From Epibacterium ulvae (GTDB lineage: Bacteria; Pseudomonadota; Alphaproteobacteria; Rhodobacterales; Rhodobacteraceae), in contig NZ_FMWG01000001.1 of assembly GCF_900102795.1 (NCBI RefSeq), positions 1 through 64,000 on the forward strand: a stretch of DNA of 64,000 nucleotides. The letters run 5' to 3'. How positions within the stretch are numbered: the first letter of the stretch is position 1; the number at the start of each line of letters is the position of its first letter. Under the pieces are notes generated by a model. That model ran no database searches. It saw only the letters and a program-made list of their open reading frames with translations, and was not told the origin of the DNA. A program made the position numbers and the translations under genes. Below are positions 3,857 to 11,625 of this stretch, one piece after another.

Positions 3857-4704
3857 AGAACAGAGCCATTCCCCATATGATCGGGCTGTTCCCTCTTGGA
3901 ATGATGAGCCTGTTTTTCCTAGCTCCACTCGCCTTTATGATGATCGTAAGCTTTTATGAGCGCGACCCGCTGGGTTTCTATAATGTCGCCTTTGTCTGGG
4001 ACAACTACAGTAAGTTTTTCTCAAGCTTCTACTATTTGATCTCGCTGAGGTCTCTTTGGTCGGCTTCACTTGGCGCGGTGATTGTTGTGCTGCTGGCCTT
4101 CCCAGCGATGTACATCATCGTTGACATGTCCCGCCGCTGGCAGCTGTTCTGGGTCATTCTACTATTGTCACTGATGTGCCTGAGCGAAGTGATCATCGGT
4201 TTTGCTTGGTTGATCCTGTTCTCTGAAAACTCGGGCATTCCAAAATTTCTGGGCTGGACAGGTCTCTGGCGTGATCCACGTTCGTTGTCGCCAAGTTTCG
4301 GGGCGATGATGGTGGGCTATGTCACGCTTGGGTTTTCACTGGTTGCTTTGATGTTCCTACCGCAGCTAGCGCGCCGGGACCGCAGCATCGAAGAGGCAGC
4401 GCTGACACTGGGCACCCCTCCGATACGGGTTTTTGCCAAGGTTATCCTGCCAAACTTTAAGGCGGGGTTGATCTCGGCTCTGGTTACAATGTTCGTCTAT
4501 TTTCTAGGCGTCTTTGTGATGCCGACAATGCTTGGCCGCCCGCAAGACTGGAATATGACTGTGATCATCACCGACAAAGCTGTTGGTGACGCGAACATGC
4601 CGCTTGGCGCCGCGCTTTCCGTCATCATGTTGATCTTTACGCTGATGATTATTGGTACGTTGGCTTACGCCTCGCGCAGCAAGGATCAAGGAGCGCAACC
4701 ATGA
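3853..4704 (+). CDS. ABC transporter permease (PotB-like)
   Basis: 283 residues with about six hydrophobic segments and the cytoplasmic EAA loop EAALTLGTPPIRVFAKVILP near residues 180-200, which docks on the ATPase. Start is the ATG that overlaps the ATPase stop by four bases. It forms the transmembrane channel with the following permease. The next gene again overlaps by ATGA, so the three transporter genes are one tightly coupled unit. Confidence 0.9.
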   Translation: MKNRAIPHMIGLFPLGMMSLFFLAPLAFMMIVSFYERDPLGFYNVAFVWDNYSKFFSSFYYLISLRSLWSASLGAVIVVLLAFPAMYIIVDMSRRWQLFWVILLLSLMCLSEVIIGFAWLILFSENSGIPKFLGWTGLWRDPRSLSPSFGAMMVGYVTLGFSLVALMFLPQLARRDRSIEEAALTLGTPPIRVFAKVILPNFKAGLISALVTMFVYFLGVFVMPTMLGRPQDWNMTVIITDKAVGDANMPLGAALSVIMLIFTLMIIGTLAYASRSKDQGAQP

Positions 4705-5492
4705 CCCTGTTCCTGAAACGCGTGTTCGTTTGCTCTATCGGAGCGGGATTAATCCTGCCCTTCTTGATTGTTGCAGGAGTATCGGTCAATTCCGCGAGCA
4801 ATATTTCCTTCCCCCCGCAAGAGTTGTCACTGCAATGGTACACACAGCTATTGACCGAGCCCGACTGGTTACGGCCTATCCGTAACTCACTGGTTATCGC
4901 ATTCTTTGCGGGTTTGATCGCCGTTTCGATCGCACTGGCCGCGAACTATGTACTTTGGCGGTTGAAGTCTGGTTTTGGTAAACTGGTATTCGGCCTTGGC
5001 CTTGGCCCGTTCATGCTGCCACCGATCATTATTGCCATGGGCGCGAGCGTGTTCTGGGCCGAAATGGGCTGGTACGGGCGCGCTGAAGCAACCGTGATCT
5101 CGCATGGCGTCTTTTTTGTGACCTTGCCGTTGGTGATTATCGCACGCGGCTTTGCAGCCTTGTCTGATGATGTAATCGAAGCGTCTCGCACCATGGGAGC
5201 GACGCCTTGGCAAACCTTCGCCAAAGTGATCTTTCCTTTGGTTCTGCCCTATGCGATCACGGGCTACGCTCTGGTCGCCATTATCTCGGTGAACGAATAT
5301 CTGATTTCCTACATGGTTTCAGGTTTTGCGGTGGAAACCCTCCCGATTCGCATCTTCAATAATGTGCGCTATGGCTACACGCCTGTCGTTGCCTCCGCCG
5401 CAATGGGGTTCGCGCTACTGACGATCGGCACACTGCTCGTACTGTCGATGTTCACGGACCTTTTGAAACTTCTTGGCGCGTCTCGCGACTGA
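4701..5492 (+). CDS. ABC transporter permease (PotC-like)
   Basis: 263 residues, the second inner-membrane permease. It starts with a hydrophobic segment (LILPFLIVAGVSVNSAS), has about six membrane spans, and carries the EAA loop EASRTMGATPWQTFAKVIFP around 155-175. Length and motif match PotC-type permeases. A 26-base gap separates it from the DUF917 gene, which is very likely in the same transcript. Confidence 0.9.
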   Translation: MTLFLKRVFVCSIGAGLILPFLIVAGVSVNSASNISFPPQELSLQWYTQLLTEPDWLRPIRNSLVIAFFAGLIAVSIALAANYVLWRLKSGFGKLVFGLGLGPFMLPPIIIAMGASVFWAEMGWYGRAEATVISHGVFFVTLPLVIIARGFAALSDDVIEASRTMGATPWQTFAKVIFPLVLPYAITGYALVAIISVNEYLISYMVSGFAVETLPIRIFNNVRYGYTPVVASAAMGFALLTIGTLLVLSMFTDLLKLLGASRD

Positions 5493-6816: not shown

Positions 6817-7428
6817 TTAGCTTCCAAACCGGGAAGATAATTCATTTTCATACGCCTCATAGGCTGATGAAAATCCTTCCAATGACCAGTTACGCTCAAA
6901 AGAACGCCCATGGCGATCGATAAAACGGAGCTCCAAAACTTCACCTGACAAAAGGGCGGACAAAATCTCGTCAGAGGTTGATGATGTGAAATCACATTCT
7001 CCAAATCGAAGGCATCGAAAGTCTGTTAAACGCCAGATAACCTCACCTCCTTGGGTGATCTGAAAGCCATCTCGTACAAAGACTGTGCCTCTCTCGACAC
7101 CGAACATCACGTCGTGACCGGCGATCGTCCCTTCACCACGCGGTGTGATAAACGTAAATATTCCACCGAATTGTGGGCGAGGCGCATATACATCCACCCA
7201 GCGAATATAGCAGCGCTCTTTCAATATGCCATTTTCTTCGCGTTCGTCACAGATAGTGTTCCAGATCCCGTGAAAGCTGTGGTGTGTACCACGCCAGTTT
7301 GAGGCAGTATCGCGGCCATCAATGTCTTGGGCAAACGCTCTGGTTACGCCTAAGCAGATGATTGTAAATAAGGGAAAAAGAGTTTGCAAAATATAGCTGC
7401 GGGCTGAATTTTGTCTGCTAGGTGACAT
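6817..7428 (-). CDS. Secreted protein of unknown function
   Basis: 203 residues with a signal peptide (core LFPLFTIICLGVTRAFA, cleavage probably before QD). The mature part has four cysteines (CDEREENGILKERC and CLRFGEC spacing) suggesting two disulfides in the periplasm, and many aromatic residues in a beta-rich pattern. I do not recognise the family. GGAG lies six bases before the ATG. A ten-G tract and a 12-bp palindrome lie 30-50 bases upstream of the start, in the promoter region. It stands alone: convergent with the DUF917 operon and next to tRNA-Trp. Confidence 0.75.
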   Translation of the reverse strand: MSPSRQNSARSYILQTLFPLFTIICLGVTRAFAQDIDGRDTASNWRGTHHSFHGIWNTICDEREENGILKERCYIRWVDVYAPRPQFGGIFTFITPRGEGTIAGHDVMFGVERGTVFVRDGFQITQGGEVIWRLTDFRCLRFGECDFTSSTSDEILSALLSGEVLELRFIDRHGRSFERNWSLEGFSSAYEAYENELSSRFGS

Positions 7429-8693: not shown

Positions 8694-9620
8694 ATGTTTT
8701 TTCTAGATACTAATAGCGCTCGTGTATTTTTCCTGTCGGGTTTTTTGCTGTCCACGACTGCAGGTTTTGCGCAGACCGTAAAGCCGGATCACGTGCTTCA
8801 GGTTACGGAGACTGTGATTCAAGAGCTGCAGGCACTGAACGAGGAAAACTTTACCCAGGCTTCCTCAGTTGCACGTCCTACTACGCCAGCAATGCCGCGT
8901 CATGTTCTTTTTCTCGCGCGTGATCGCTGGCGCAAGGTGCAGCTGTTAAGGTTTATGAATGGTCTGGAAACCCACGGCCTAGATGATGTGGTGGTTCACC
9001 AGATTACGCCGGGTGAAGTGAAGGCGCTTGTTGATCAACTTTTGCGCGAGACCCGAGAACTGCGGCCTGCATATGGGCTTGCGAAAAGCGACCTGGACGC
9101 TGCGATGACATCTGGCAAGAAGCCGGTGGACGTTTATGGGAGCCTCATCCAGGTTTCCGCTGAATTGCAATCTTTGGGGGTGCCTGCCACCGTTCCCAAT
9201 GATGTTTATCGCGTTGCATTGACCGTTTCCCATTCCCTCGAGCAGATCGCAGAGAAGCAGGGGGTTAAAGTTGATTTGAGTGGCCTTAAACCTGAGCAGG
9301 GGCGCACTCCCGTTGATGCCTATCGCGGTGCTCTGGGTTTGTTACAGGATTTGCAAACATTAACAACTGATCACAACACGTATACAGTGCCGGGCGGTGT
9401 CGCTATTCCTGATGAGAAATCTAAAGGCATATCGCCTGATGATGTCATTCTCGTGCTGTCGCGCGCGTTGGCTGATGTGATGGCGATTATGCATGTCACT
9501 CAAACGGCGTCAGCGCTAACTTACGCGCCCTATGTCGGCGGTAAAACGCCCTCTGATGTTTATTATGAGATCAAGCGGGCTCAGCACATTATTTCATCTC
9601 TGAACGACAAAGCCGCATGA
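8694..9620 (+). CDS. Periplasmic repeat protein preceding a chemoreceptor
   Basis: 308 residues from ATG 8694 (preceded by AAGGCGAGG). A signal peptide (RVFFLSGFLLSTTAGFAQ) ends near residue 26. The mature protein is mostly helical and contains about seven or eight degenerate copies of a roughly 19-residue unit of form x-P-x-[DE]-V-[YL]-x8-10-L-x2-L, for example at 143-161, 167-185, 205-223 and 285-303 (KPVDVY, VPNDVY, TPVDAY, TPSDVY starts), with weaker copies at 30-48, 104-123 and 246-265. No known domain recognised. It ends 33 bases before the methyl-accepting chemotaxis gene, so the two are probably co-transcribed, suggesting a periplasmic partner or ligand-binding accessory for that receptor. 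Confidence 0.8.
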   Translation: MFFLDTNSARVFFLSGFLLSTTAGFAQTVKPDHVLQVTETVIQELQALNEENFTQASSVARPTTPAMPRHVLFLARDRWRKVQLLRFMNGLETHGLDDVVVHQITPGEVKALVDQLLRETRELRPAYGLAKSDLDAAMTSGKKPVDVYGSLIQVSAELQSLGVPATVPNDVYRVALTVSHSLEQIAEKQGVKVDLSGLKPEQGRTPVDAYRGALGLLQDLQTLTTDHNTYTVPGGVAIPDEKSKGISPDDVILVLSRALADVMAIMHVTQTASALTYAPYVGGKTPSDVYYEIKRAQHIISSLNDKAA

Positions 9621-9653
9621 GCGATTTTTGCATTAACTCTTTGAGGGTTAGAT

Positions 9654-11585
9654 ATGTCACATGATAATCCAACCAAGCCTCGGCTTGGGATTCAAATCCG
9701 TCTGGCGACTCGCATTCTTGCATGGGTTGTTTTCCCAATGTTGATTTTGTCTTGTATTGCCTTGGCGACAATCTGGTTTGCTGATCGGCAATCACAGCAG
9801 CTATTACAACAACAAGCCAAATTGGTTAGCAACAATCAGCTTTTAACGCAAAATAGTAATGCGTTGACTCGTGCGTTATCGGAAATCAATCGCACATTGG
9901 TTCAGATAGAAAGCGAACGTCGCGCTAACCTGACGGCTGAACGGTTCGATCCGTCATCTGAAGTCGCGTTGCGTTCACAATTCCAAGCGTCAATTCGCTC
10001 TTATCTGAAGGGAATGATCGGCTTCTCTTCGGCGATTGAAAAGACACAGTTGCCGCGCGAAGATTTGGAAAAGCATGTTGTGTATCTCACCCGTGCTGCG
10101 GGGCAAATTGATCGCCTTGCTTCTCTTTATATGGTTGCCAATAGCCGTACTTTGCGACTGGCCTCAGACGGCGATTTTGTCGGTGCGCGCAATAACTTCC
10201 GTTTTGAAGAGCTTTTGCAAACCAAAACCCTGCGTAAAAACATGGATCTGGCAAGCATCCGTTTTTCTGAACTGTCAGAGCTCCTGATGGAGGTTCAAAG
10301 TCGTATAACAACAGAACAAATCGTGGCCTCTGAGACCCGCCAAGCGGAACTTAAACAAAGTGCCTACATTGCGCTTGCGGTGATTGTAGTGTTGGTGGCA
10401 AGTGCTGCGCTCTTTTCCGTCAGGCGCGGTATCATCCGTCCCATTCGGTCCATTCCAGAACGGGTTAAGAGTATTGGACAGAACGAGCAGGGCAAGGCTG
10501 AGGTCGCTGAAACAGCCCGTAAGGATGAGATCGGTGATATCTTGCAAGCGGTTGCCGCCTTTGGGGCCAGGATCGAAGCCGAGCAACGTGCGCAGAAAGA
10601 AGAAGCCGATCGCAAATATGCAGAACAAACAAGTGCTGTCACGATGATTGGGGCCGGGCTTGCCCAATTGTCCAAAGGGGACCTTTCAGTCCGCATTTCT
10701 CACAATTTGCCCTCAGAGTATGAGAAGCTGAAACATGATTTTAATCATGCGCTGAGCAAGCTGGATGAAACCGTATCACAGGTTGTAACCTCCACACGAT
10801 CGATTTCCAATGGGGCATCGGAGCTGGATCAAGCGGCGAGTGAATTGTCGCGTCGCACAGAGAGTCAGGCGGCCACATTGGAAGAGACTGCGGCTGCATT
10901 GGAACAAATGACGGCAAGCGTCAAATCAACGGCTGGGCGTGCGCGGGATGTTGAAAACAACATGAAGGGCGCGCGTACGGAAGCGGAATCCAGCAGCGTT
11001 GTTGTACGCAATGCGGTAGATGCGATGGAGCAACTGGAGCGCGGTTCGGAAAAAATCTCGCAAATTATCGGTGTGATTGATGATATTGCCTTTCAGACCA
11101 ATTTGCTTGCGCTGAATGCAGGGGTAGAGGCAGCACGGGCTGGGGAAGCTGGGCGCGGGTTTGCTGTGGTTGCCTCCGAGGTGCGATCCTTGGCGCAACG
11201 GTCCTCGGATGCTGCGCTTGAGATTAAGTCGCTGATTGGCGAGAGCTCTCAGCAGGTCTCAAACGGGGTGCGTCTTGTGGGGCAGGCAGGAGATGCGATT
11301 ACTGCGATTTCGTCTCAGGTGAGCGAGATCTCAGATCTCATCTCTGGAATCGCAAGCGGTGCTGCAGAGCAATCGACTGGCCTTGATGAAATCAATGTAG
11401 GGGTCACACAGTTGGATGGGGTGACACAGCAAAACGCAGCTATGGTCGAGGAAGCCACTGCTGCGGTTCATATGATGTCCACAGATACATCCAAATTAAA
11501 CCATTTGATTGCGTTCTTTGATGTGGATCCCCCTAATGATCTGCTTGGACGCAGCGAGGGGCGTACACTGGCTGCAAACATGTAG
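9654..11585 (+). CDS. Methyl-accepting chemotaxis protein
   Basis: 643 residues. Transmembrane helix 1 is about 20-43, a helical periplasmic sensor region about 44-240, transmembrane helix 2 about 243-262, a HAMP linker to about 311, a second HAMP-like segment about 325-385, and the signalling domain from about 400. The hairpin tip that contacts CheA/CheW is visible as the [21 protein letters not shown] region. The C-terminus (RTLAANM) lacks an NWETF-type CheR/CheB tether. No cheA, cheW or cheR is nearby, so it must signal to components elsewhere; an orphan cheB-like/cheD pair lies at 53-55 kb. Confidence 0.93.
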
Positions 11586-11594
11586 TTTTTTAGT

Positions 11595-11625
11595 GGCGCG
11601 CGCTGTTTTTGCGCGCCGTTATTTT
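11595..11625. terminator. Terminator between chemoreceptor and lysE genes
   Basis: GGCGCGC pairs with GCGCGCC around a loop GCTGTTTTT, followed by GTTATTTTA. It lies in the 38-base gap between convergent genes and overlaps the lysE-family stop codon. Confidence 0.65.

Follow-up and report, generated by a model that had tools for sequence, protein, structure and literature searches.

In a 64,000-nucleotide stretch of Epibacterium ulvae DNA (RefSeq assembly GCF_900102795.1, contig NZ_FMWG01000001.1, forward-strand positions 1 to 64,000; hereafter the window), a gene for a predicted secreted helical-repeat protein, here termed RP, lies directly upstream of a chemoreceptor gene (methyl-accepting chemotaxis protein, MCP). 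Our results suggest that the two products are likely to form a two-part sensor, in which exported RP would dock on the periplasmic domain of the chemoreceptor, most likely at its membrane-distal tip, and alter the chemotaxis signal, RP being a general co-receptor module. RP is probably a member of an undescribed family of extramembrane partners that aid bacterial receptors. The computed observations behind this reading are the internal repeats of RP, the conserved adjacency of its gene to receptor genes, the co-occurrence of RP and the receptor domain in one class sample and the correlated divergence of RP and receptor periplasmic domains.

A predicted secreted protein and its neighbouring chemoreceptor

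The two genes and the 33 bases between them are where the sequence-only reading of this DNA, a model's earlier note, had placed them, and the features of the pair are as follows.

8694..9620, + strand: helical-repeat secreted protein (RP), 308 amino acids (aa); open reading frame (ORF) with ATG at 8694 and stop ending at 9620; homologues found
8694..8774, + strand: signal peptide, RP residues 1-27; by inspection, ...TTAGFA before QTV
9654..11585, + strand: chemoreceptor (MCP), 643 aa, partner gene; PF00015 E 1.2e-48, PF00672 (HAMP) E 2.8e-6
9771..10364, + strand: receptor periplasmic domain, residues 40-237, predicted four-helix bundle; hydropathy, AlphaFold2, Foldseek
10140..10220, + strand: conserved receptor motif N163-x-R165 ... 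A178-x2-N181-F182-x2-E185-E186-x2-R/Q189; conservation, with helix position from AlphaFold2
11591..11621, + strand: terminator-like hairpin 3' of the receptor gene; 12 pairs, then TTTT

The partner has the signalling domain and HAMP domain of an MCP, with two transmembrane segments (residues 21-39 and 238-256 by hydropathy) around the periplasmic domain. On the + strand, no terminator-like site was reported in the gap between the RP and receptor genes, and the latter is followed by a 12-pair hairpin, so that a two-gene operon fits, and we infer one. The genome holds a single copy of RP and 11 matches to PF00015, the MCP signalling domain, the partner receptor among them.

That RP is secreted, as first proposed, is suggested by its N-terminal signal peptide, assigned by inspection: a hydrophobic stretch ends at AGFA before Q, and residues 1-26 have a predicted local distance difference test score (pLDDT) below 50 in AlphaFold2. 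Among homologues from the fetched loci, 55 of 59 carry an N-terminal hydrophobic 12-mer with a mean Kyte-Doolittle hydropathy (KD) of at least 1.8, as scored by a hydropathy script with two over-long ORFs trimmed.

Receptor genes beside RP in other genomes

A same-strand membrane receptor gene lies within 134 bp of RP in 50 of 57 testable loci, which are related by descent and hence do not represent 57 independent events. These neighbours comprise 24 chemoreceptors, 25 histidine kinases and one GGDEF-EAL protein. As a baseline, the same loci contain 351 other ORFs of 150 aa or longer, and for 22 of these a signalling gene exceeding 300 aa lies on the same strand no more than 150 bp away; under exactly these labels and limits RP scores 49 of 57. 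The first batch of loci (42 fetched plus the window, two cut by a contig end, leaving 41 testable) had a directly adjoining same-strand receptor in 40 cases, 16 of them chemoreceptors and 24 histidine kinases. The second batch (17 loci fetched after the hypothesis had been formed, one cut, leaving 16 testable) had a receptor adjoining RP in 10: eight chemoreceptors, one kinase and the GGDEF-EAL protein. The loci cut by a contig end and so outside the 57 are L064, L065 and L090; in L090 the approximately 90 residues remaining after RP start in chemoreceptor-like fashion, as judged by eye. Two assignments were made individually: the partner in L069 is cut at 168 aa and was counted as a kinase because it shares 77% identity with the N-terminal part of the L067 kinase across 166 residues, and the GGDEF-EAL neighbour in L101 was missed by the script labels and recovered by Pfam. 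In the first-batch loci counted, RP lies 5' of the receptor except in the four loci of the 4HB class, where it lies downstream.

The sequence-only reading had named homologues mostly without an adjoining chemoreceptor as the outcome that would speak against a pairing; most homologues do adjoin a receptor. Its proposal of a two-part sensory system therefore gains support from the genomics, but the chemoreceptor on which it centred adjoins RP in 24 of the 57 loci, under half. As the neighbours include 25 histidine kinases and one GGDEF-EAL protein, we have widened the pairing to several receptor types. It is highly implausible that RP and the receptor are coincidental neighbours: we found no point in favour of this, and it is contradicted by the neighbourhood counts (a receptor beside 50 of 57 RPs, a same-strand signalling gene beside 22 of 351 other ORFs), by the several receptor classes involved and by the occurrence of both gene orders. 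Coincidental adjacency was accordingly rejected.

Eight helical units in RP

Mature RP contains eight units, each opening with P-x-[DENH]-[VA]. All were located by alignment, matrix test and AlphaFold2.

8784..8846, + strand: repeat unit 1 (P31)
8895..8957, + strand: repeat unit 2 (P68, PRHV; lowest-scoring unit in the window)
9009..9071, + strand: repeat unit 3 (P106)
9123..9185, + strand: repeat unit 4 (P144)
9195..9257, + strand: repeat unit 5 (P168; short 24-residue step after unit 4)
9309..9371, + strand: repeat unit 6 (P206)
9435..9497, + strand: repeat unit 7 (P248)
9549..9611, + strand: repeat unit 8 (P286)

Mature RP has eight occurrences of the motif P.[DENH][VA], compared with an average of 0.54 when its residues were shuffled 20,000 times, and no shuffle reached eight; taken alone this statistic is biased because the motif was chosen after the sequence had been seen. 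We also scored each unit with a matrix that left it out and was built on the seven remaining units, taken from 37 aligned family members with the window among them. The top score fell at the expected proline for all eight units, and the numbers of shuffles (2,000 for each unit) that matched the observed score were 0, 20, 0, 0, 0, 0, 1 and 0 for units 1 to 8. An internal repeat score, the other check on which the proposal had been staked, is hence significant by this leave-one-unit-out test. In an alignment of the window protein and five homologues, 23-56% identical to it, all eight repeat prolines are within the 23 invariant columns. Among the 37 aligned members, prolines 1 to 8 are retained in 32, 35, 35, 34, 30, 28, 30 and 29, respectively.

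The best AlphaFold2 model of RP, computed from an alignment of five sequences (mean pLDDT 86.2; predicted template modelling score, pTM, 0.83), has eight helices with first residues 31, 68, 106, 144, 168, 206, 248 and 286, and the five models differ in confidence (pLDDT 86.2, 86.0, 71.2, 69.5 and 63.4). Successive unit starts are spaced by 37, 38, 38, 24, 38, 42 and 38 residues. The earlier description of seven or eight copies of a 19-residue unit is thus right about the repeats, of which there are eight; these spacings indicate that the unit is a helix of approximately 20 residues plus a linker and not a 19-residue tandem.

Units were counted across the family with a single matrix and cut-off, the matrix having been trained on the 37 members including the window. 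Single-length RPs (n = 53) have eight units in 32 cases, seven in 12 and three to six in 9, and control ORFs (n = 454) give 0.32 unit matches per 300 residues. Six double-length RPs (537-632 aa, one cut by a contig end) have 13-15 units, and each half includes one short step, of 25 residues. These proteins, from L065-L069 and L097, consist of two tandem halves and adjoin hybrid kinases where the contig is long enough; the presence of PF21623 in these kinases was confirmed by Pfam for L066 and L097.

The receptor periplasmic domain and its divergence with RP

The receptor periplasmic domain had been described as helical, and AlphaFold2 (four sequences; pLDDT 83.7, pTM 0.63) predicts a four-helix bundle, with helices at 2-76, 82-113, 117-153 and 157-239 of the modelled segment. 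In the 50 rows that Foldseek showed for this model, chains of Tsr, Tar and MCP2201 have probabilities of 0.96-1.00, apart from one Tar chain at 0.69; their E values are weak (0.019 at best), and the top row is a designed helical bundle (0.0091). No Pfam sensory-domain family matches the domain, and TarH and 4HB_MCP_1 are not among the matches at E of 1 or below. Across 17 RP-receptor pairs, ten positions of this domain are conserved in 14 or more; nine of these are in residues 147-189 and eight of those in 163-189, which flank the alpha3-alpha4 turn, the membrane-distal end of the predicted bundle. The same domain family is present in all eight second-batch chemoreceptors that adjoin RP. In the reverse test, a profile of the receptor domain matched 2 of 385 genomes of the class. 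These are the two genomes with RP, and one is the window's own.

By sequence, the periplasmic domains of the first-batch receptors fall into a helical NFxxEE-type (9), hybrid kinases (23), chemoreceptors (4) and three singletons. Among the few members of these classes on which Pfam was run, PF21623 matched the kinases of L042, L066, L075 and L097 (the last from the second batch), three of the four also matching dCache_1, and 4HB_MCP_1 matched L072 and the singleton L074. In a tree of RP, the RPs beside NFEE-type chemoreceptors form one branch (support 100/99) and those of the 4HB group another (support 99/95), and the kinase group requires five changes. Overall, the receptor labels require eight changes on this tree versus a mean of 19.0 when shuffled, with none of 200 shuffles as low (five labels, including four unknown rows).

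For 17 chemoreceptor pairs, RP distances correlate with those of the receptor periplasmic part at r = 0.92 and with those of the cytoplasmic part at 0.72 (0 of 5,000 permutations as high in each case), with partial correlations of 0.83 and 0.13. For 18 kinase pairs the values, obtained without a permutation test, are 0.94 and 0.81, with partial correlations of 0.82 versus 0.35; this set holds 18 of the 24 first-batch kinase pairs, L048 and L069 (cut), L066-L068 (double-length) and L075 (divergent) being omitted. As RP distances track the periplasmic more than the cytoplasmic part, they indicate the periplasmic domain as the partner surface, a comparison to be read with the caution that conservation is higher in cytoplasmic kinase and signalling domains.

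Family identity, distribution and gene surroundings

RP of the window matches no Pfam family at E up to 1, solute-binding-protein and repeat families included, and no NCBIfam family. When the six aligned RPs were submitted to Pfam, three weak unrelated families appeared (best E 0.041) and no repeat family at E of 1 or below. A PDB sequence search gave nothing significant, its weak matches (best E 0.11 and 0.48) looking like chance, and Foldseek with the RP model gave no PDB match below E 0.96 and no BFVD match below E 0.17. A description of such a family was not found in the listed titles and abstract openings of openly licensed PubMed Central (PMC) papers, and may exist elsewhere. Two candidate identities were rejected: a solute-binding protein, because of the lack of a Pfam profile and the all-helical model, and a known solenoid repeat (TPR, Sel1, ARM, HEAT), because of the lack of a Pfam repeat-family match. 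On balance, we lean towards RP and its relatives being an undescribed family of periplasmic co-receptors, other than solute-binding proteins, with an uncharacterised all-helical fold of eight units that evolution has coupled repeatedly to chemoreceptors, hybrid kinases and a cyclic di-GMP (c-di-GMP) enzyme whose sensory domains differ.

The family is phylum-wide yet patchy. Homologues occur at four loci of the contig collection (a Shimia, a Kordiimonas, a metagenome-assembled genome (MAG) named Stygiobacter and a Gallionella MAG), in 3 of 292 genomes of the order (one of the three judged a chance match), in 2 of 385 of the class, in 32 of 398 of the phylum and in 13 of 100 of the order to which the genome of L004 belongs (one of the 13 weak). 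These counts include the window's own genome, or for the L004 order its centre genome, and may be too low as the first search stage scores few candidates per genome. One match, in G039 (E 6e-4, 85 residues), was dropped as chance, being within a stretch of a DNA-ligase-like ORF on the opposite strand of locus L007. Two more, at loci that were not fetched, were left out of the counts: G1071 (E 1.8e-4, 36 residues) and G749:C13, a contig-end fragment. With the RPs of the window and of L053 as queries, no homologue was found in plasmid records; none was found in viral contigs, a search to which annotated phage records did not belong. At L004, from the MAG named Stygiobacter (Ignavibacteriota), the RP-receptor pair groups on the tree with Alphaproteobacteria, and the name or binning may be wrong.

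Several loci have further genes of note. In L042 (7896-13639), RP is followed by a very large hybrid kinase with the architecture PF21623-HAMP-GAF-HisKA-HATPase-receivers and then by a CheB-CheR fusion (a gene of approximately 560 aa); a similar kinase and approximately 560-aa gene, by length and position, are present in L043, L044, L046, L047, L049 (cut), L050, L052-L054, L059 and L060. It seems unusual for a chemotaxis-type adaptation pair to adjoin a hybrid kinase. Immediately 5' of RP in L042 (5908-6954) and L053 (5115-6974), Pfam identified a gene for a CHASE3-domain protein, a possible third component; L044 and L054 have genes of similar length and placement. An ABC-type uptake set (permease, binding protein and ATPase, by eye) is upstream on the opposite strand in the Shimia locus L002 (2180-4986, - strand). 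In L005 a zeta-toxin-like P-loop protein (4441-5013; PF06414, E 1.3e-6) is encoded between RP and a sensor kinase. A 713-aa protein near the distant RPs of L100, L102 and L103 starts with what look by eye like hydrophobic segments and, where scanned (L103), contains a DnaQ-like exonuclease domain (PF00929). In the window itself, 6817-7428 (- strand) encodes a small secreted protein whose match to the IalB family (E 2.6e-5) is just above the cut-off.

Discussion

The mechanism that we propose is that RP would be exported to the periplasm and would dock on the periplasmic domain of the chemoreceptor encoded by the next gene. The docking site would most likely be the membrane-distal tip of the bundle, at the N-x-R ... 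A-x2-NF-x2-EE motif. There RP may bind a ligand or an envelope component, or may change its own shape, and its state would alter the signal passed by the receptor to the chemotaxis machinery. Elsewhere the family appears to be paired with dCache-type hybrid histidine kinases, 4HB chemoreceptors and a GGDEF-EAL protein, as might be expected of a general module. Physical contact, docking at the tip and the direction of signalling are inferred, and so is ligand binding, which the sequence-only reading, with presentation of the ligand to the receptor, had likewise offered as a suggestion.

For many bacterial receptors no ligand is known. If confirmed, a dedicated partner in the periplasm, encoded beside them, would explain why direct ligand screens could fail; it would then be the partner rather than the receptor that should be screened, and such receptors would become testable. 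The RP family would represent a general signal-capture module for transmembrane receptors, and its occurrence with several receptor types provides a natural series for studying how one kind of periplasmic protein drives differently folded sensory domains.

A number of observations weigh against this proposal. The reverse test with the receptor domain, although clean, is small and depends on two genomes only. Some correlation of distances is expected because neighbouring genes are inherited together, the correlations were obtained without an unrelated fast-evolving periplasmic protein as a control, and in the kinase set RP distances also correlate with those of the cytoplasmic GAF domain (r = 0.85). 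In a few homologues, a 19-mer past residue 80 is moderately hydrophobic (mean KD 1.64-1.86 for the six highest), so that a soluble periplasmic state is uncertain for some of them. One docking mode cannot serve all receptors, as their sensory domains differ by class (helical versus dCache). Lastly, 7 of the 57 testable loci have no directly adjoining same-strand membrane receptor. In L005 (Gallionella), the same strand carries a GGDEF response regulator 36 bp 5' of RP and a sensor kinase 825 bp 3' of it. The near-identical neighbourhoods of L100, L102 and L103 have a single receiver-domain gene approximately 100 bp downstream and then the 713-aa protein. In the remaining three, no signalling gene lies on the RP strand within 150 bp: in L099 two opposite-strand kinases flank RP, L089 has an opposite-strand sigma-54 response regulator and a kinase at 1.5 kb, and in L098 a radical-SAM gene lies upstream and a receiver-domain gene is on the other strand.

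These seven loci, and in particular the position of RP beside a soluble GGDEF response regulator in L005, would be compatible with RP being a binder of the envelope or of a polymer (peptidoglycan, polysaccharide or an outer-membrane component) whose gene simply shares its regulation with that of a receptor for the same signal, without direct contact between the two proteins. We nevertheless think this distinctly improbable, as the divergence of RP correlates more with the periplasmic than with the cytoplasmic part of the receptor, and as the window-type receptor domain was never found without RP in 385 genomes (of which only two had either). A somewhat stronger alternative, still unlikely in our view, is that RP is a constitutive structural or inhibitory subunit of the receptor (an assembly factor, stabiliser or brake) with no ligand of its own, which sets folding, clustering or baseline while the receptor senses directly. 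Adjacency, clustering by clade and correlated divergence fit such a subunit equally well, and the Foldseek searches of PDB and BFVD found no recognisable ligand-binding fold for RP. However, it would be unusual for a single chaperone to serve sensory domains of four-helix, dCache and other kinds, and the double-length RPs, with their 13-15 units, hint weakly at a binding surface.

The proposed docking of RP has a parallel in maltose-binding protein, which docks at the tip of Tar. There a separate secreted protein acts on the periplasmic domain of a receptor, as RP is proposed to do. A classical solute-binding protein has two mixed helix/strand lobes around a cleft, whereas the model of RP has eight helices and no strand of three or more residues, and RP has no Pfam match (E of 1 or below). 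It is established that solute-binding proteins, when loaded with ligand, act as indirect stimuli for several receptor types, namely chemoreceptors, sensor kinases and c-di-GMP enzymes (PMC9602780); maltose-binding protein and Tar are an example (PMC7055323). On the receptor side, the window domain resembles the sensory domains of Tar, Tsr and MCP2201 in its predicted four-helix bundle, but differs from them in lacking a TarH or 4HB_MCP_1 match and in having a conserved tip motif, and the Foldseek E values are weak. RP shares with TPR, Sel1, Armadillo and similar proteins the presence of regular helices with a repeating sequence signature; it differs in that its unit is a single helix, starting with P-x-[DENH]-V and joined to the next by a linker of variable length.

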